Positions 3,649 through 41,720 of a DNA stretch of 41,720 bases are shown here, in pieces. Below the pieces are notes generated by a model. It searched no databases. It had not been told where the DNA came from and worked only from the letters and a program-made list of their open reading frames with translations. Both the position numbers and the translations under genes were made by a program. Origin of the DNA: an uncultured Prevotellaceae bacterium. Its GTDB lineage: Bacteria > Bacteroidota > Bacteroidia > Bacteroidales > Muribaculaceae. Where the stretch lies: NCBI GenBank assembly GCA_900318065.1, contig ONIY01000004.1, forward strand, positions 1 to 41,720, in the 5' to 3' direction. The number at the start of each line of letters is the position of its first letter. Within the stretch, counting starts at the first letter, position 1.

Positions 3649-4200
3649 TTATTGTTTTATTATACCTAAATAATTATAGCATTCATCAATAGAATTGCAT
3701 GAGGCAATTTTTGTTTCAAATCCCATGCCAAAGCCCTTCCAGGCGTAGTCGCTCACCACATAGTGGTCTTGTGCTGCCTCAATGGCGCGAATCTTGTTGC
3801 CCACGACTGTGAAGTCGATTAGTTCGCCTCCCAGTCGGCTGCCCAGCCACAAAGGCCTGATGTCGCCCTCAAAGTTCTTGAAAATGAACACCCGTCGGCT
3901 GGGAGTGAGGAAGTAGCGTGAACCCTTGAATACCCCCACCACGGCGTCGGTTGAGCCGTCGCCGTCGATGTCGGCGGTAGCAAAGCGGTAGACGGGGTAG
4001 TCGAGTTGCCAGGTGCAGGTGAGAAGGTTACTGTCGTTGTAAAGGCCAATGACCCATAGTGAGTCGTTCCTTTGTGTTATATTAAAGTGTTGTGCGATAG
4101 TGCTTTGTGGGGTGATAAAAAATATGGCAATTGCCATGAGTGAGCCTCGCGAGAGGCCCCAGCAGGCACATTGCCATAATATTTTCAATAGCCAGTTCAT
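3649..4200 (-). CDS. Secreted FG-GAP/VCBS-like protein of unknown function
   Basis: 183 residues. The N-terminus has a hydrophobic segment ending near STIAQ, consistent with export; a second in-frame ATG at residue 22 (MAIAIFFI) would give a more usual signal peptide length. The segment ATADIDGDGSTDAVVGVF is an FG-GAP/VCBS-type calcium-binding loop (DxDGDG) as found in integrin-like beta-propeller blades. At this length it can only hold about two blades, so it may be a small fragment-like propeller or an adaptor. It is the first gene of the operon with the DUF3160 and CapA-like genes. The region just upstream is a GGGGATC-type repeat rather than a recognisable promoter. Confidence 0.7.
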   Translation of the reverse strand: MNWLLKILWQCACWGLSRGSLMAIAIFFITPQSTIAQHFNITQRNDSLWVIGLYNDSNLLTCTWQLDYPVYRFATADIDGDGSTDAVVGVFKGSRYFLTPSRRVFIFKNFEGDIRPLWLGSRLGGELIDFTVVGNKIRAIEAAQDHYVVSDYAWKGFGMGFETKIASCNSIDECYNYLGIIKQ

Positions 4201-4309
4201 GGGGGATGGTGGATGGGGGATCGAGGATCGGAGATCGGGGATGGGGGATCGGAGATCGGGGATGAGTGATTAAAATAATGTAGTGGGAATTGGCTATTTC
4301 GAACTGTGT
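4201..4309. repeat. GGGGATC/GAGGATC heptamer-like array
   Basis: The gap between queA and the FG-GAP-like gene is mostly imperfect repeats of GGGGATC, GAGGATCG, GAGATCGG and GGGGATGG, from 4201 to about 4266. The same words recur at 6297-6325, 13984-14030, 34810-34880, 37165-37198 and (reverse complement) 37977-38025. No coding sequence is supported here. Confidence 0.85.
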
Positions 4310-6258: not shown

Positions 6259-6363
6259 CGCTGTAAGTGTAAAGTGTTAAGTTGCGCCTTCGGCGCGGGG
6301 ATCGGGGATGGGGGATGGGGGATCGGATTCGCTTGATTCGCTTGACTCACCTGACTCAGTTCA
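6259..6363. repeat. Repeat block: TTAAG word, GCGCC hairpin, GGGGATC array
   Basis: Between truB and uppP the sequence reads as GTGTTAAG, then the hairpin GCGCC-TTC-GGCGC (6284-6296), then GGGGATC/GGGGATGG words to about 6325, then GATTCGCTTGATTCGCTTGA and CACCTGACTCA words. The same components occur elsewhere in the window in other orders. No gene is visible. Confidence 0.8.
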
Positions 6364-13498: not shown

Positions 13499-13662
13499 AG
13501 TAATTATGCGATTCCAATCTGCTAAATATCAGGCGACAAACTCCCCCTCTAAGATAGAGGGGGCGGGGGGGAGTATGATGTTGTCGACAATTATTTCCTT
13601 ATTGTTGCATCGTTGCTATGTGGTCATACTCCCCCTAACCCCCTCTATCTTAGAGGGGGAAC
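13499..13662 (+). repeat. C-rich MITE-like element, copy A (uninterrupted)
   Basis: The core (13539-13662) has long terminal inverted repeats. The left end is ACTCCCCCTCTAAGATAG then AGGGGGCGGGGGGGAGTATG. The right end is CATACTCCCCCTAACCCC then CTCTATCTTAGAGGGGGAAC. Each end is itself a palindrome (CCCCCTCTA/TAGAGGGGG). A 5' flank from AGTAATTATGCGATTCC to CTAAATATCAGGCGAC is shared with copy B. The centre of about 45 bases is diverged from copies B and C. No coding capacity. Confidence 0.85.
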
Positions 13663-13966: not shown

Positions 13967-14129
13967 AGTTGCGCCTGCGGCGCGTGGATCGAGGATCGGG
14001 GATCGAGGATCGGGGATCGGGAATCGAGGGGCACAGTCCGGAAAATCCGGAAGAACCGGAGAACTGATAACTGAGAACTGAAAACTGATAACTGACTACT
14101 GATAACTTAAAACTGATAACTATAAAGAT
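13967..14129. repeat. Repeat mosaic: GCGCC hairpin, GGATCG words, CCGGA words, AACTGAT words
   Basis: In order: GTTGCGCC-TGC-GGCGCG hairpin (13971-13983), GGGGATCG/GAGGATCG words to about 14030, a short CCGGAAAATCCGGAAGAACC stretch, then AACTGATAACTGAGAACTGA type words (14053-14122). The words end 7 bases before the ATG of the nucleoside kinase, so they make up its leader. Confidence 0.85.
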
Positions 14130-15803: not shown

Positions 15804-16060
15804 TTAATGCACAATGCACAATTGGGCTGCGCCCTATACCATCTTGTGAGCTAACATAATTATCTTCTTTTGGGTCAGCCTTCGGCTGAGAGAATGGTTG
15901 GAGACGCCGCACCCCCAGTGCCGCTATTTCCATTCGCTGGCGCTCATTCCGATAGCGGTACTGGGGGTTATACATGGGTTCAGCCTCCGGCTGATTAGCT
16001 GGCGGAAATTTTGCTGAATAGTTACACTACCGATGGAAGTGGTGGAAAAGTGTTAAAATT
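15804..16060. repeat. Structured repeat element with CCCCCAGT palindrome
   Basis: After a short TAATGCACAATGCACAATTG word, the sequence GGGTCAGCCTTCGGCTGA (15872-15889) and GGGTTCAGCCTCCGGCTGA (15976-15994) are two hairpin-forming direct repeats. They flank an inverted repeat ACCCCCAGTGCCGCTAT (15911-15927) and ATAGCGGTACTGGGGGT (15952-15968). The element looks like a non-coding dispersed repeat. No gene is seen. Confidence 0.65.
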
Positions 16061-28269: not shown

Positions 28270-28500
28270 AGTTCCCCCTCTAAGATAGAGGGGGTTAGGG
28301 GGAGTATGAACATCAGCGACACAGCGAAAGATGAGGGGAAATTCGACGAAATCATCATACTCCCCCCCGCCCCCTCTATCTTAGAGGGGGAGTTTGTCGC
28401 CTGATATTTAGATAAAATGCTCACGCTCGGAAAGCATTGAGCAAGCTCGGCTTTCACTCGCTTAATCGCATTGTTAGAAGTTCGGAATCTCATGATTACT
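28270..28500 (-). repeat. C-rich MITE-like element, copy B, with a nested hairpin insertion
   Basis: Reverse-oriented copy of the element at 13499-13662. The core is 28270-28394 with the same palindromic ends. Its centre (TTCGTCGAATTTCCCCTCAT read on the minus strand) closely matches copy C. The flank shared with copy A (TAATCATGAGATTCCGAA on the minus strand) is split by a 62-bp insertion between two TTAG copies (28408-28411 and 28474-28477). The rest of the 347-bp gap up to ribH shows no gene. Confidence 0.85.
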
Positions 28501-29112: not shown

Positions 29113-29360
29113 ATCAGTATTCAGTTATCAGTTATCAGTATTCAGTTTTTTAGTAGAATAGTTGAATAGTAGAGTAGTTGTCGGTTCTCAGTAGTCAGTT
29201 TTCAGTAGAGCAGTAGAGCAGTAGAATAGTAGAGTAGTTGAGTACTCTTCCCTCTCACCTCTCACCTCTCACCTAATCTCGCCACTGTCTTCCATAACAA
29301 TAAACTATAAACCATAAACCAAGAAAACCATAAACAAAGCAACCATCAACCAAGAAAGTG
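29113..29360. repeat. Repeat mosaic: TCAGT, AGTAG, CTCTCACC and ATAAACC words
   Basis: In order: CAGTTATCAGTATTCAGT words (29115-29147), TAGTAGAATAGTTGAATAG words, a second TCAGT block (29188-29206), AGAGCAGTAGAATAGTAG words, CTCTCACCTCTCACC words (about 29252-29274), then ACCATAAACCAAGAAAACC words (29300-29345). The same series recurs in part at 33711-33860 and 38520-38600. Confidence 0.85.
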
Positions 29361-33706: not shown

Positions 33707-33873
33707 ATAAGTAGTCAGTTATCAGTAGTCAGTTATCAGTAGTCAGTAATCAGTAGTCAGTAGTCAGTTTTTTTAGTGGAGCAGTTGAGTAGTAAAATAG
33801 TTGAGTAGTTCTTTTCTAGAATTTCTAGTTCTTCTAGTTTTTCTAGATTAACTAGAGTTTCTAGGCTGATTTT
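33707..33873. repeat. Repeat mosaic: TCAGT, GTTGAGTAG and TTCTAGT words
   Basis: AGTAGTCAGTTATCAGTAGT words (33711-33766), GAGCAGTTGAGTAGTAAAAT words (33779-33810), and TTCTAGTTCTTCTAGTTTTT words (33813-33865). It separates era from der and contains no gene. Confidence 0.85.
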
Positions 33874-34758: not shown

Positions 34759-35009
34759 AGGGGGGAGATAAGTGTTAAGTGTTGAGTGTTAAGTGAGCGC
34801 CTGCGGCGCGGGGAACGGGGATCGGGGATCGAGGATCGAGGATCGAGGATCGAGGATCGAGGATCGAGGATCGAGGATGGGGGATCGGGGTCGAGCAATC
34901 GAGCGGTCGAGGGGGCTCAATTGTGCATTGTGCATTATGCATTGTGCATTACCCTTTGTCCTTCGTCCTTTGTCCTTTGTCCTTCGTCCTTCGTCCTTTG
35001 TCCTTCATT
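34759..35009. repeat. Repeat mosaic upstream of era
   Basis: In order: GTTAAGTGTTGAGTGTTAAG, the GCGCC-TGC-GGCGC hairpin (34797-34809), a GGGGATCGAGGATCGAGG array of about ten heptamers (34811-34885), TCGAGCAATCGAGCGGTCGA (34892-34912), TTGTGCATTGTGCATTATGC words, then CCTTTGTCCTTCGTCC words (34952-35005). No gene is visible. Confidence 0.9.
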
Positions 35010-35068
35010 AAAAAATGCCCCTCTACACTCTCTTGTGTGATGCTCAAGAGTGTACAGGCGCATTTTTT
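35010..35068. terminator. Terminator after fabH
   Basis: AAAAAATGC with CCT and TACACTCT pairs with AGAGTGTA, AGG and GCATTTTTT around a 15-base loop. It begins 17 bp past the fabH stop on the minus strand and has a T-run in that direction. Confidence 0.75.
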
Positions 35069-35085
35069 CGTTATCACCCTGTGGC

Positions 35086-37090: not shown

Positions 37091-37240
37091 AAAAGGCGCC
37101 TGCGGCGCGGGGAAATACAGGGGAGAGGTGAGAGGGGAGAGGTGAGTGGGGAGCGCCTGCGGCGCGGGGGATCGGGGATGGGAAATCGGGGATGGGGGGC
37201 TTTGTAGGGACAAGGCGTGCCTTGTCCGCCTGCGGCGACA
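37091..37240. repeat. Repeat mosaic with two GCGCC hairpins and a GGACAAGG palindrome
   Basis: GCGCC-TGC-GGCGC at 37096-37108 and 37153-37165, with GGGGAGAGGTGAGAGGGGAG words between them. GGGGATCGGGGATGGG words follow (37165-37198). Then comes the palindrome GGACAAGGCGTGCCTTGTCC (37208-37227), which recurs inverted at 37924-37943. Confidence 0.85.
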
Positions 37241-37470
37241 AACTCCCCCTCTAAGATAGACCAATGGTGCAAGCCGAAGCCAGCGGCAAAACTTGTTTTG
37301 ACATTGGTGAGGCGCAGCCCATTGATGCTGAAAGAGCGGGTGAGGCGCAGCCCATTGATGCTGAAAGAGCGGGCGGGGGGAGTATGATTTCGTCGAATTT
37401 CCCCCTCATCGTTAGCTGTGTCGATGGTATTCATACTCCCCCTAACCCCCTCTATCTTAGAGGGGGAACT
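37240..37470 (+). repeat. C-rich MITE-like element, copy C, with a nested insertion
   Basis: Same orientation as copy A. The left terminal repeat is broken after CTCCCCCTCTAAGATAGA (37260) by about 105-110 bp. The inserted DNA starts CCAATGGTGCAAGCCGA (the hairpin repeat seen at 31363) and ends in two exact 33-bp units beginning GGTGAGGCGCAGCCCATTGA (37306-37338 and 37339-37371). The element then resumes GCGGGGGGAGTATGA. Its centre matches copy B closely. The right end at 37435-37470 is intact. Confidence 0.85.
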
Positions 37471-37650
37471 GACTTCCGAAACTTGAACCCTTAAACTCCC
37501 CATCCTCGACCAGCGCGCCGCAGGCGCAACGTTCAACCTTCCACTTTCCACCTTCCACGCGCCGCAGGCGCCTCGTTCCACGTTTCCTGCGCCGCAGGCG
37601 CCACGTCCCACTTTCCACGCTCACGCAGGCGCTCAAATCCATTTTTTTTG
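37471..37650. repeat. GCGCCGCAGGCGC hairpins with CCACTTTCCA/CGTTCCA words
   Basis: Three exact copies of GCGCCGCAGGCGC (37515-37527, 37559-37571, 37589-37601) separate blocks of CCTTCCACTTTCCACC, CTCGTTCCACGTTTCC and CACGTCCCACTTTCCACG words. A frame through this DNA exists but is judged non-coding. Confidence 0.85.
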
Positions 37651-37833: not shown

Positions 37834-38024
37834 AATGCATAATGCACAATGCACAATTGGCCTCGGGAATTTCGAGCGCTCGAACGGTCGACCGCTCGAG
37901 TGCTCGACGCGCACGTCGCTGGCGGACAAGGCACGCCTTGTCCCTACAGGGAGGGTGCAGTCGCCTCGCGGTCGCCCGATCCCCGATCCCCGACCTCCGA
38001 CCTCCGATCTTCGATCCCCGGCTA
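37834..38024. repeat. Repeat mosaic downstream of tRNA-Pro
   Basis: TGCATAATGCACAATGCACA words, TCGAGCGCTCGAACGGTCGA words (37873-37910), the palindrome GGACAAGGCACGCCTTGTCC (37924-37943, inverted relative to 37208), then GATCCCCGATCCCCGACC words, the reverse complement of the GGGGATC array. It ends at the stop of the SemiSWEET gene. Confidence 0.85.
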
Positions 38025-38339
38025 TTATTTCTTCTTGAAATAGTCGTTATACATCTTGATGCCGAAGATGATGACGCTGCACACTGTGGTGATGAGGTTG
38101 GTCCAGAAGATTGCAAAGCCCTCGCCAAAGATGCCAAGCATAATACCTTGCAGCATAAAGGCGATGCCGCCAATGCCAATCATTAGGAAAGTGGGCAATG
38201 CGATGTCGTCGGTCTTGCGGGTTCGGATGGTTTGGATGGCTTGGGGCACATAGCCCAAAACCAGTCCTAACGAGGCAACAATGCCGCAAATCCAAAAGAA
38301 TGTCCCAGTTGGGTCAAAAAAGCTATTTAAAAGTAACAT
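38025..38339 (-). CDS. SemiSWEET family sugar transporter
   Basis: 104 residues with three transmembrane helices: about 15-36, 48-70 and 74-97. The PQ-loop motif is visible as GYVPQAIQTIRTRKTDD with Pro32-Gln33, matching bacterial SemiSWEETs (MtN3/PQ-loop), which dimerise to move sugars by facilitated diffusion. The spacing and length agree with the family. It stands alone between repeat blocks. Confidence 0.9.
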   Translation of the reverse strand: MLLLNSFFDPTGTFFWICGIVASLGLVLGYVPQAIQTIRTRKTDDIALPTFLMIGIGGIAFMLQGIMLGIFGEGFAIFWTNLITTVCSVIIFGIKMYNDYFKKK

Positions 38340-38601
38340 TGCTGTTAAGTGTTAAGTGTTAAGTTGCGCCTGTGGCGCGTGGAATGTGGAATGTGGAATG
38401 TGGAACGTGGCGCCTGCGGCGCGGGGGGTAGGGGAGAGGGGAGAGGGGAGAGGACGTCGAGCGGTCGAGTGTTCGAGCAATCGAGCGGTCGATGGGGGGA
38501 GATTTGTGCATTATGCATTGTGCATTCTCCTCTTCCCTCTTCCCTCTCACCTCTCACCTTACTTCCATAAACTATAAACAATAAACCATAAACTAGAAGG
38601 T
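38340..38601. repeat. Most complete repeat mosaic in the window
   Basis: In order: GTTAAGTGTTAAGTGTTAAG; hairpin GCGCC-TGT-GGCGC (38366-38378); GGAATGTGGAATGTGGAA words; hairpin GCGCC-TGC-GGCGC (38410-38422); GGGGAGAGGGGAGAGG words; GTCGAGCGGTCGAGTGTTCG words (38457-38492); GTGCATTATGCATTGTGC words (38506-38527); CTCTTCCCTCTCACC words; CCATAAACTATAAACAATAA words (38563-38594). It lies between the protease and SemiSWEET genes. Confidence 0.9.
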
Positions 38602-41600
38602 TTACTTAATCTGTTTCATGAGTTCTTGTGTGGCGGTGATGAGCTGCTGGTCGACTCCATTGACCACTGTTGCTGGGTCGTTGAACACTTTGATGTCGGG
38701 CTCGAGCTGGGTGTTCTCCAGGTAGGAACCGTCGGGCAGGCGGTAGCCAATGATGGGCATACCGTAGATGAGCGATGGGTCTTGCAGAGTCTCCCACGAC
38801 ACGCTGCTCATGGTTCCTGGCACTGGCATTCCCACCAGCTTGCCTATGCCGGTGTGCTTGTACACCCATGGTGTGCCGTGCGCGTTGCTGTAGCATGCCT
38901 CACACTGCACCATGATGCTGGGCTTGTTCCAGCGTCGGCTGGGCATGTCGCAAGCTTCGCGTCCGCGAATCACCTGCGTGAAGTACTTCTTGCCGCTGAA
39001 GAGCACCTCGATGTCCTCGTGCAGACGTCCGCCACCGTTGAAACGGATGTCGATGACGATGCCGTCCTTCTTGTAGTACTTACCCATTACCTGGCTGTAG
39101 ACCTCGCGGTAGCTCTCGTCGTTCATCGACTGGATGTGGACATATCCCAGTCGTCCTCCCGAGATGCTGTCGACCAGATGCGCGTTGCGCTTCACCCATC
39201 GCTTGTAGAGCAGGTTGTTCATGGCTCCGCTGGTGATGGGCAGGATCACCTCTTCAAAAGTGTTGCCGCCCTTGTCGCGAATGGTCACCAGAGTCTTCTT
39301 TCCCGCCAGTCCGTTGAGCAGCTGGGTGTAGTCGTTCTCTTCGTTGATCTCGATGCCGTTGATTTTCTCCACAATCATGCCTGGACGCACCTTGCTGGTG
39401 GAGCGTGCAAACGGCCCTTTCTCTACCACCTCGTCGATCTTGAGGCCCTTGCCGGTGTAGGTCCAGTCGAAGAGCAGACCCATATTGGCAGTTGCCTCGC
39501 TGGCACCGCTGGGATAGTAGCGGCCACCCGAGTGCGACACGTTGAGTTCGCCCAGTAGCTCGCTCAGCAGGTTGGCGTAGTCGTAGTTGTTGTTGATGTG
39601 TGGCAGGAACTTGCGGTAGGCGTCGCACATCATGTCCCACTTGCACCCGTTGAGGTCGGTGCGGAAGAACCGCTTGTTGACCTGGTGCTGCACGTGGTTG
39701 AACATGTACTCACGCTCGGCTGCAAGGTCCATCTTCACGTCGGCCTTGTAGGTGATGGGAGTGATCTTGTCGCTGGCGACGGTGAGCTTGTTCATTGCCG
39801 ACCCCAGGACGAACATGTCCTTGCCGTCCTTGCCCATTTGGATGTTGGCCCAACCGGAGTTCATCTTGTTGACGAGCTTGGTTGAGTGCTTGCGCATGTC
39901 GAGCTTCCACAGGTCGTAGCCGCTCTCAAACTTCGACAGGTAATAGAGGTTGTCGCCGTTGTTGGTGACCATTGCGCTGGCAATGCTGCTGGAGTTGGGC
40001 GTGAGTCGCACCACTCGGTCCTCGATGCCGTCGAGCTCAACGACGATAGCCTTGACCTCGTCCTTCTTGTCGCCAGCATCCTTGTCGTCCTTCTTTTTGT
40101 TTTTCTTGTCCTTCTCCTCCTCGGCCTTCTTCTTGTCGGCCTCTTTCTTTGCCTCCTTCTCGGCTTCCTTCACGAGCTCGTAGTCCTCCTTGCTCATGCG
40201 GTATTTGTCGTAGGCGTCCTGGTTGACAAAAGCCAGGAGCACATCGTCCTGCGAGCCCCACGAGCCGTGGGCGCGCATGCCGTAGCGGTTGCTGGTGAAG
40301 AGAATGGCGTTGCCTTCCATGACCCACTTGGGCGCCTCGCTGAAGTAGCCACTGCCGGTGATGTTGGTGATATTGCCACCGTCGGCACTCACGATGCCCA
40401 CGTCGGTGTAGGGGTCGCGCTGGTTGGCGATGTAGGTGAGCGTGAACCACTTGCTGTCGGGCGACCAGGAGTAGTCAAAGCCGCCGTTGGTCTCATACCA
40501 AGTGGAGCCATCGGTGACCTGATGCACCTTGCCGCTCTCAATGTCCATTACCATGAGGCGGTTGCGGTTCTCGATGAAAGCCAGCTTCTTGCCGTCGGGG
40601 CTAACATCGGGAGCTGCCCGCTCAACGGTTGTCGACGGCAACAGGATTTCCTCCTTGATGGTGGTGGCATTGGGGAAGTTGGGGTCCTCCTTGCGCTCAA
40701 TGGAAGCCTTGACAAGCTGCCAGTTGCCATTGCGCTCGGTGGCGTAGTAGAGAGTGCGGTTGTCGCTGCCCCACGAGAGTCCTGCCTCGGCCTCGGGGGT
40801 GGTGGTGATTCGCTTGGTGGTGGTATACTCTACCGATGTGACAAAGACCTCGCCACGGGCAATGAAAGCCACCTGCTTGCCGTCGGGCGACGCCACTGCG
40901 GCTGTTGCGCCTTTGGTCATTGAGGTGCGCAGCACATCCTCCGAGTCGTCGTGGAAGAGCGACACCTTCACCTTGCTGGGCTTGCCCTGAGGGGCCTGTG
41001 TGTAGAGCTCGCCGTCGTAGGTGTAGCACAAAGTGCCATCGCCGGCTATCGAGAGGAATCGCACGGGGTGAGTCTTGAACGATGTCACCGCCTTGATGGC
41101 GCTGGGCTGGTCGATGGGGAACTGATATACGTTCATCGAACCGCCATTGCGCTCGCTCAGGATATACACGGTGCGGCCATCGGCGCTGAGCACTGGGCTG
41201 CGGTCCTCGCCGGCATGGTTGGTGAGATTAGTGTGGCGGCCAGTGCTTGTGTCATATTTCCATATTTCACGTGTCACACTGCTGGTGTGATGCTTGCGCC
41301 AGGCATCCTCCATGCCCTTCTGGTCCTGATAGACCATAAACTTGCCCTTGCTGTCCCAGGTGAGCTCCTCGGCTGGTGTGCCCAGCACCTGAGTGGTGCG
41401 TCCACCAGCCACTGGCACCTTGTAGACCTCGGTGAGACGTGAGCTTGGGAACAGAGCACTGCTGGCAGGATCCTGGATTGCCGCCGAGAAGTAGATGTAC
41501 TGTCCGTCGGGGCTGAAGGCCCAGGGCATCTCGCTGGCAGAGTTGGTGGTAAGCCGCACAGGTGCTCCACCTGCCGCTGGCATGACGAAGACGTCGAAGT

Positions 41601-41720
41601 TGCCCTTTCGGTCGCTGGCAAAGGCGATGTAGCGACTGTCGGCACTCCACACGGGGTTGGTTTCATAACTGGGTTGTGTGGTGAGTTGCACAGCCTGTCC
41701 GCCACTGGCTGCAACCTTGT
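38602..41720 (-). CDS. Tricorn-like S41 family peptidase (5' end outside the window)
   Basis: At least 1038 residues; the frame is still open at 41720 (KVAASGGQAVQLTT), so the start lies beyond the edge. The N-terminal half is a tricorn-type WD40/PD40 beta-propeller with repeated WSPDSKW- and FSPDGQY-type blades. A highly charged Lys/Glu/Asp linker (about EAEKEAKKEADKKKAEEE) is followed by the tricorn C1-like region, a PDZ domain (VRPGMIVEKINGIEINEEND) and an S41 catalytic domain (GIVIDIRFNGGGRLHEDIEV, ACYSNAHGTPWVYKHTGIGK). The Ser of YSNAHG is the probable nucleophile. It is likely an exported protease that degrades peptides. Confidence 0.9.
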   Translation of the reverse strand, partial: KVAASGGQAVQLTTQPSYETNPVWSADSRYIAFASDRKGNFDVFVMPAAGGAPVRLTTNSASEMPWAFSPDGQYIYFSAAIQDPASSALFPSSRLTEVYKVPVAGGRTTQVLGTPAEELTWDSKGKFMVYQDQKGMEDAWRKHHTSSVTREIWKYDTSTGRHTNLTNHAGEDRSPVLSADGRTVYILSERNGGSMNVYQFPIDQPSAIKAVTSFKTHPVRFLSIAGDGTLCYTYDGELYTQAPQGKPSKVKVSLFHDDSEDVLRTSMTKGATAAVASPDGKQVAFIARGEVFVTSVEYTTTKRITTTPEAEAGLSWGSDNRTLYYATERNGNWQLVKASIERKEDPNFPNATTIKEEILLPSTTVERAAPDVSPDGKKLAFIENRNRLMVMDIESGKVHQVTDGSTWYETNGGFDYSWSPDSKWFTLTYIANQRDPYTDVGIVSADGGNITNITGSGYFSEAPKWVMEGNAILFTSNRYGMRAHGSWGSQDDVLLAFVNQDAYDKYRMSKEDYELVKEAEKEAKKEADKKKAEEEKDKKNKKKDDKDAGDKKDEVKAIVVELDGIEDRVVRLTPNSSSIASAMVTNNGDNLYYLSKFESGYDLWKLDMRKHSTKLVNKMNSGWANIQMGKDGKDMFVLGSAMNKLTVASDKITPITYKADVKMDLAAEREYMFNHVQHQVNKRFFRTDLNGCKWDMMCDAYRKFLPHINNNYDYANLLSELLGELNVSHSGGRYYPSGASEATANMGLLFDWTYTGKGLKIDEVVEKGPFARSTSKVRPGMIVEKINGIEINEENDYTQLLNGLAGKKTLVTIRDKGGNTFEEVILPITSGAMNNLLYKRWVKRNAHLVDSISGGRLGYVHIQSMNDESYREVYSQVMGKYYKKDGIVIDIRFNGGGRLHEDIEVLFSGKKYFTQVIRGREACDMPSRRWNKPSIMVQCEACYSNAHGTPWVYKHTGIGKLVGMPVPGTMSSVSWETLQDPSLIYGMPIIGYRLPDGSYLENTQLEPDIKVFNDPATVVNGVDQQLITATQELMKQIK

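Follow-up and report, generated by a model that had tools for sequence, protein, structure and literature searches.

Heptamer repeats in the spacers between genes have been seen in scattered bacteria, and there is no agreement on their origin. In cyanobacteria, STRR sequences are short tandem heptamers dispersed through intergenic DNA that resemble the words described here; to our knowledge, none of them forms an ordered series of several words with a hairpin seam. REP elements and REPINs are dispersed short hairpins amplified in particular lineages together with RAYT transposases, and they are recognised by a GTAG or GGAG foot on the hairpin and by the presence of the same hairpin on either side of the RAYT gene. 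Direct repeats of TAACTGA are described from marine Beggiatoaceae, Cyanobacteria and five Bacteroidetes (MacGregor 2015, PMC4679880), and the available text of that paper also remarks on intergenic regions with long arrays, including those of Gramella forsetii. G-rich heptamers, GGGAATC in Xanthomonas and GGGGA(T/C)T in Nostoc, vary in length and sequence between close relatives, according to the accessible sections of a second study (Rehm 2015, PMC4692102). An initial sequence-only reading of the locus treated here had likened it to cyanobacterial STRRs, which proved apt, and had considered it an undescribed system. The latter view was too broad, given that heptamer intergenic arrays already appear in the accessible parts of both papers; it holds for the word set and for the ordered multi-word series with a hairpin seam, of which we found no description in open-access text.

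The window, by which we mean the whole stretch of 41,720 bp analysed, is G000:C25:1-41720 of an assembly (G000, hereafter the own genome) of 2,985,043 bp in 97 contigs, 93.85% complete, from a bacterium whose family is probably the Muribaculaceae. A word mosaic occupies the gap at 38340..38601 (minus strand) between the stop codon, at 38602, of a tricorn-like protease gene (38602-41691, minus strand) and the ATG, at 38339, of a PQ-loop gene (38025-38339, minus strand). Read in the sense of transcription, the gap runs C, H, B, P, G, hairpin, F, hairpin, A and then ATG; the seven word arrays have 7- or 8-bp units, and two of the seams carry the hairpin GCGCC-TGY-GGCGC. Word C (GTTTATN, or ATAAACN on the plus strand; 38567..38598, minus) begins 3 nt past the stop codon of the upstream gene and is followed by H (GGGAAGA/GGTGAGA, plus-strand CCTCTTC and CCTCTCA; 38529..38559, minus), B (TGCATTR; 38504..38526, plus), P (4.6 units of the 8-mer TCGAGNNN; 38456..38492, plus) and G (AGGGGAG; 38424..38453, plus). 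The first hairpin, with loop TGC (38410..38422, plus), joins G to F (4.6 units of GTGGAAN, near-tandem GTGGAAT; 38379..38410, plus), and the second, with loop TGT (38366..38378, plus), joins F to three units of A (ACTTAAC, plus-strand TTAAGTG; 38343..38364, minus), which end 3 nt before the start codon. With its terminal arrays 3 nt from a stop codon and 3 nt from a start codon, the gap is filled by words. The sequence-only reading had reported at least seven near-tandem words of 6-13 bp, single-base variation between units, and the hairpin at two junctions; the seven words in series, the variation and both junctions were recovered, whereas the unit lengths had to be corrected.

Beyond this gap, we sampled 40 stretches of 20 kb from the own genome, which together with the window amount to 841,720 bp (441,720 bp in a first part) and contain 419 non-coding gaps totalling 151,325 bp. 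The sampled contigs were picked for carrying hairpins, as all 20 contigs of the first sample do, with the stretches placed at contig starts or at fixed steps. Gene calling relied on a simple codon-usage script, which leaves some gaps overlong (one of 6,575 bp, L044) and some starts misplaced, and arrays were detected and assigned to families from hand-chosen seeds. Within the 441,720 bp, self-matching of non-coding DNA covers 17.15 positions/kb at lag 7. Lags 6 and 8 give 0.24 and 3.46, and the lag-7 value is 0.04 for the 282 called coding sequences and 0.01 for shuffled gaps, a difference that excludes chance as the source of the mosaic. The non-coding peaks fall at lags 7, 14, 21 and 28, with period 7 dominant among the repeats. 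Lag-7 matching is likewise raised in non-coding DNA elsewhere: it reaches 8.74 in 15 near-relative loci, where lag 6 gives 0.1, and 6.53 in 20 loci of other genera, where lag 6 gives 0.37. The near-relative loci are L001-L012 and L032-L034, grouped by a FabH identity of 86-91% (79% over a truncated match in L034), and also include L077-L096 from same-genus genomes.

The dictionary centres on eleven main families, each represented by 11-40 arrays in the 841,720 bp. The main 7-mers are A (ACTTAAC), B (TGCATTR), C (GTTTATN), D (GATCGGG), E (CCTTYGT), F (GTGGAAN), G (AGGGGAG), H (GGTGAGA) and I (ACTGANN), the main 8-mers are P (TCGAGCRN) and Q (AGTWRARY), and K, R and S are minor 9-mer families. 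Dictionary elements were found in 112 of the 419 gaps (82/300 co-directional, 16/55 convergent, 14/64 divergent), where they account for 11,317 bp, or 7.5% of the non-coding DNA, and cover more than 60% of 27 gaps. The words are common across the sample rather than rare outside the window, in keeping with the sequence-only reading, and, as tandem 7-bp units in non-coding DNA with the same word at many dispersed sites, they show two of the features of heptamer simple repeats (STRR/LSSR); between species, the arrays differ. A scan of the window against Rfam at gathering thresholds returned one tRNA and no other known structured RNA, and a search of a plasmid collection yielded 36 records with short, weak matches, none spanning 80% of the query.

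Six further blocks in the window had been listed as containing the same words; all six do contain words, and five have words or the hairpin in common with the reported gap. On the plus strand, a hairpin-D-R-I block (13967..14129) brings I to about 10 nt from the next start codon, and a hairpin-G-hairpin-D block (37091..37240) is followed by a REP-like hairpin, GTAGGGACA. On the minus strand, C-linker-H-Q-I-Q-I (29113..29360; series 2, as defined below) lies upstream of a lumazine-synthase gene, E-B-P-D-hairpin-A (34759..35009; series 1) ends ahead of an era-like start, and D-P-B (37834..38024) has the same internal order as the reported gap with the opposite polarity. The remaining block (33707..33873, minus), upstream of a der-like GTPase gene, is instead built of K (the 9-mer TCTAGANNN), Q and I and has no word in common with the reported gap. 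Three blocks were absent from that list: a word D array (GATCGGG/GATGGGG; 4199..4264, plus), an S-D-hairpin-A block whose hairpin has a GAA loop (6259..6363, minus), and three hairpins alternating with F units (37500..37640, minus).

Across the genome sample, the order and polarity of these modules are strongly fixed. Dominant order and strand hold in 152 of 177 adjacencies between different families (77 chains), with 25 departing, whereas shuffling order and strand gave a mean of 101 (maximum 113) and shuffling strand alone a mean of 93 (maximum 105), with 152 reached in 0/2000 shuffles of either kind. Series 1 reads (C)(E or B) P (D, F or G) hairpin A; series 2 reads C linker (H or G) Q I and mostly lacks the hairpin. 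The seams recur at many sites, often without extra bases, and the unique linker beside C (CAGTGGCGAGATTAG, at most 3 mismatches) turns up 15 times, in 14 gaps, with one occurrence perhaps due to chance. The hairpin 13-mer with a TGY loop has 85 copies genome-wide, compared with 0 for a mirror control. Of 82 exact hairpins genome-wide, 47 show GCGCCGCAGGCGC followed by CTTAA within 3 nt, and the opposite polarity occurs 0 times; in the sample, a word stands directly 3' of 24 of 39 hairpins, 20 of these words being A, against 13.8% under random placement. The description of the blocks as modular, genome-wide and joined at a hairpin is therefore borne out, with joins far from chance (47 versus 0; 24/39 versus 13.8%), whereas the proposal that modules are shuffled among sites into other orders is mostly unsupported (152/177; seam 47 versus 0). 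We also considered the hairpin-then-A join as a rule of the whole genus and rejected it: under a strict test it applies to 16 of 25 A arrays here and to 1 of 18 in near-relative loci, over a background of 40/2460.

Individual units consist of a constant core (such as ACTGA, ACTTA or GTTTAT) and free positions. Adjacent units of word I mismatch at the last two positions in 74% and 40% of cases versus 0-6% within ACTGA (chi-square 332), those of word C in 60% at one position and 0-18% elsewhere, and those of word E in 51% at one Y and 0-6% elsewhere. This concentration by position is significant throughout the eleven main families (p 7e-7 to 1e-68, with unit pairs taken as independent); it is not significant in K, R and S (p 0.07, 0.44 and 0.30), which are too small for the test. 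A seed-free measure, the share of mismatches at the top position, gave 0.54 versus 0.35 expected in the own genome (151 arrays), 0.54 versus 0.36 in near-relative loci (46 arrays), 0.46 versus 0.36 in loci of other genera (20 arrays) and 0.50 versus 0.30 in g84, a genus of the phylum (7 arrays), but 0.44 versus 0.37 in four genomes from other orders of the class (5 arrays). In these last four genomes, 5 of 10 arrays of at least 4 units carry no more than one mismatch. Neighbouring units of A, B, D, F, G and P are more alike than units from different arrays, whereas adjacent units of C, E, H, I and Q are not. In 10 of the 11 main families, C being the exception, a unit resembles its second neighbour more closely than its first. 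The effect is clearest in A, B, I and Q and points to 14-bp steps, and these patterns are not what pure slippage produces. Four-unit ACTGANN runs have 342 placements in the own genome, with TA as the commonest free pair (54/164 units). In genus g84 (L101, L102; G379), TCAGTNN arrays run straight into ACTGANN, forming inverted repeats that nearly fill whole gaps.

Spelling differs between species. Exact runs were counted in 37 genomes (1 own, 22 of the same genus, 14 of other families), and word A was the family for which dialect was compared: ACTTAACACTTAACACTTA, an ACTTAAC run, occurs 57 times in the own genome, 3 times in relative G001 and 0 times in the remaining 35, while ACTTACAACTTAAAACTTA is absent from the own genome and G001 and occurs 43 times across seven other same-genus genomes. 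Those seven relatives spell the word ACTTACA or ACTTAAA and never carry ACTTAAC runs. The hairpin, with 82 copies here, has 1-5 copies in 6 of 36 same-genus genomes and none in 24 genomes of other families. Four-unit ACTTANN runs as such appear in 12 of 37 genomes including the own one, and runs of a mirror control word in 7 of 37, so heptamer runs in themselves are not special to ACTTANN; four-unit ACTGANN runs appear in 57 of 395 Bacteroidota genomes, against 29 for the mirror word (hand count). The dialects may simply follow clades.

We consider it probable, if only narrowly so, that the mosaics are dispersed composite heptamer repeats with 7- and 14-bp turnover, homogenised genome-wide and under some constraint on their cores. 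Tandem arrays would lengthen and shorten in 7- and 14-bp steps through replication slippage or unequal exchange. Arrays built of one word are homologous DNA wherever they lie, so that module seams could spread among them by ectopic recombination or gene conversion, which would keep the free letters alike within a genome and different between species; words, seams and spelling common to unlinked sites, with a different spelling in relatives, point to such concerted evolution. Conversion is the homogenising step that we infer, the hairpin-A seam would have been amplified in this lineage, and a constraint acting through binding, translation or an end-recognition step may keep the cores.

Exact sharing between sites bears on how such homogenisation could proceed. 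Sites have 148 28-mers in common, versus a mean of 103 (maximum 134) in within-array shuffles and of 74 (maximum 104) when units are redrawn from the pool (30 shuffles each); the figures are 32 versus 22 (maximum 41) for 35-mers and 0 versus 3.3 for 42-mers (30 shuffles each). This weak long exact sharing implies that the arrays are mostly not recent whole copies and that any conversion acts on short tracts; whole-array copying between sites was accordingly set aside as the main source, being weak beyond the shuffles. Two observations strain the account. Slippage and conversion alone would not predict variation concentrated at fixed positions, and the adjacent units of C, E, H, I and Q, being no closer than those of other arrays, count against it. 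Judging from the leaders compared below, selection on the core at start-adjacent arrays would be the best supplement to the conversion model; the word classes seen in the leaders of era, der and the PQ-loop gene point to it, and the leaders of fabH, gene c and most lumazine-synthase genes do not.

In a doubtful alternative, the arrays are multi-site binding platforms whose cores are read by a protein (S1-, KH-, CsrA-like or nucleoid) or by the ribosome. Under this tentative view, start-adjacent ACTTANN and ACTGANN arrays would be translational leaders, comparable to the proposal made for TAACTGA in Beggiatoa. Near-invariant cores beside near-random free positions, as in word I, speak for it. 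Across four orthologous gaps, moreover, the interior is mostly replaced and the start-adjacent word class tends to stay: A stands ahead of era in 10/15 leaders (I in 2/15, neither in 3/15) and ahead of the PQ-loop gene in 4/4, and der leaders carry I in 5/15 and AACTNNN only in 7/15 (neither in 3/15). Rows for the tricorn-like protease gene were left out of this comparison. Against this, orthologous leaders of fabH (0/15) and gene c (0/6) have no such array, and those of the lumazine-synthase gene carry I in 1/6, AACTNNN only in 1/6 and neither in 4/6.

Orientation is similarly divided. Toward the nearest gene edge, A (35/40), I (22/30) and E (14/14) point outward and C (35/39) points inward. 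Word I lies with rather than against transcription in a ratio of 18:5 (p 0.011) and Q in a ratio of 9:1 (p 0.021), so that I abuts the next start, and 10 of the 12 non-coding I arrays in near-relative loci end within 40 nt of a start codon, as expected of a leader. However, outward A arrays meet stops as often as starts (18 versus 17), and I arrays end within 40 nt of stops too: 9/36 in the own genome (13/36 near starts), 6 of 21 in genus g84 (3 near starts) and 4 of 6 in four other genomes of the class (2 near starts). Convergent gaps carry arrays as often as others, and the G/C-rich words and the hairpin are left unexplained. Series 1 shows no significant transcriptional bias (A 18:11, hairpin 15:14), which, together with the similar use of gap types, argues for a process at the DNA level. 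That similar use (82/300, 16/55, 14/64) also led us to reject a terminator or promoter role. Plotted by distance from start and stop codons, the 7-period signal had no clear peak under a strict threshold.

Two of the orthologous gaps have features of their own. Between fabH and era (window ~35009-35072; L001-L012, L032 and L033), a terminator-like hairpin with a T run lies behind fabH, and L003 has about 42 nt, partly word A, between the T run and the era start; if the terminator works, the signals for era must lie in or around the array. The gap between the era-like and der-like genes of L001 measures 574 bp and seems to contain a small open frame, possibly GxxExxY-like, of which L009 seems to retain a remnant.

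The genome-wide hairpin invites a further explanation, REP/RAYT-type mobilisation, in which a Y1 (RAYT-like) transposase moves the hairpins and carries the flanking words along; we regard this as unlikely. The own genome does yield six PF01797 matches, two of them in open frames of 202 and 219 aa, which we take to be RAYT size; separate GTAGGGACA hairpins, some in inverted pairs, lie inside or beside the mosaics; and the polarity of the hairpin-A seam is fixed. Yet inspection by eye showed CAGCC..GGCTG and CCCC..GGGG hairpins, instead of GCGCC-TGC-GGCGC, around the two RAYT-size genes, and no GTAG or GGAG foot ahead of GCGCC-TGY-GGCGC, whose flanks are words D/F/G and A. In addition, 19 of 39 sampled hairpins are without A on the expected side, 15 of 39 are without any word there, and series 2 is mostly free of hairpins.

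Elements closer to the REP kind are present alongside the mosaics. GTAG-footed REP-like hairpins, for example GTAGGGACAAGGCGTGCCTTGTCC at ~37205-37232 of the window, have compensatory stem variants AAGGC/GCCTT, AACGC/GCGTT and ACAGC/GCTGT, and GTAGGGACA has 32 matches in the sampled stretches, some as inverted pairs and a few not forming hairpins. A CAGCC..GGCTG hairpin pair surrounds a CCCCCAGTGCCGC / GCGGTACTGGGGG unit at 15879-15995, and this hairpin type flanks the 202-aa PF01797 (RAYT-like) gene at L097 (G000:C9 start). A dispersed inverted element, CTCCCCCTCTAAGATAGAGGGGG ... GGGGGAGTATGA, occurs in the window at 13546-13660, 28270-28400 and 37233-37470 as well as at other loci, with up to 101 identical bases between sites, and looks like a small non-autonomous mobile element; it contains a 33-bp exact tandem duplication (GGTGAGGCGCAGCCCATTGATGCTGAAAGAGCG) at 37306-37373.

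That each gap's arrays arose in place from chance heptamers by plain local slippage is very unlikely as a full account, and the sequence-only reading was right that simple slippage of one repeat does not suffice. In an earlier survey, as cited in the available text of PMC4679880, most repeat-rich genomes had heptanucleotides as their commonest class; the near-purity of 5/10 arrays of at least 4 units in the four genomes from other orders of the class fits slippage, and so does local similarity within F and B. Slippage does not place the same words at unlinked sites in a fixed order with fixed seams, and A's free letters are common across sites and not across species. Order, seam polarity and the A dialect therefore rule it out on its own, and it remains a component of the preferred account of turnover with homogenisation.

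A dedicated activity that writes, or rewrites, the spacers of this genus is in our view highly improbable, although a fixed core, loose letters, a set order and genome-specific spelling could be so read. Such a writer would be compatible with the independence of neighbouring units in C, E, H, I and Q, with cores that leave some positions free, with the fixed order and with the A dialect; its action would resemble template-guided terminal synthesis, with the order set relative to gene edges. As a separate observation, the own genome encodes two reverse transcriptases, one (L121; G000:C20:67187-67864) scoring best with retron-type models and the other (L122; G000:C29:52239-52835) with a group II maturase model, both below cut-offs. 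Finally, it is barely conceivable that folding into a large RNA or DNA hairpin accounts for the order: by RNA energies, the reported gap is stabler than its dinucleotide shuffles (z -6.96 on the plus strand, -4.75 on the minus strand), as are 58 chains (mean z -1.75; one chain with unresolved bases gave zero), but against module-keeping shuffles of order and strand the mean z is +0.31, with z < -2 in 5 of 116 strands, so RNA folding is rejected as the cause of the order.

Dispersed heptamer repeats with genome-wide homogenisation thus remain our preferred reading, and the genus, with many words per genome, measurable order and polarity, cores with free letters and species spellings, makes slippage, conversion, core selection and an active writer directly testable against one another. 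Set beside REP elements and REPINs, and with REP-like elements also present in the genome, the GCGCC-TGY-GGCGC hairpin is footless by eye and serves as a seam between tandem arrays. The TAACTGA repeats, as far as the available text of PMC4679880 goes, agree with the present ones in the word itself (I = ACTGANN), in period 7, in their intergenic position and, for some arrays but with mixed counts between genomes, in a forward orientation just upstream of start codons; the work on them covers one exact word, whose single-base variants are rarely repeated, unlike the eleven main families with degenerate positions, fixed order and hairpin seam found here. In the accessible sections of PMC4692102, the G-rich heptamers share period 7, intergenic position, a degenerate position (in the Nostoc word) and an orientation that follows the nearest gene edge whatever the gene direction; there, each genome is studied for one G-rich word type, no ordered series is described, and sites in a Xanthomonas pair lie mostly between the same genes, whereas in the few orthologous gaps compared here the array is mostly replaced. 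On this comparison, the mosaic belongs to a known kind of spacer repeat in bacteria and stands out within it by its unusual regularity.
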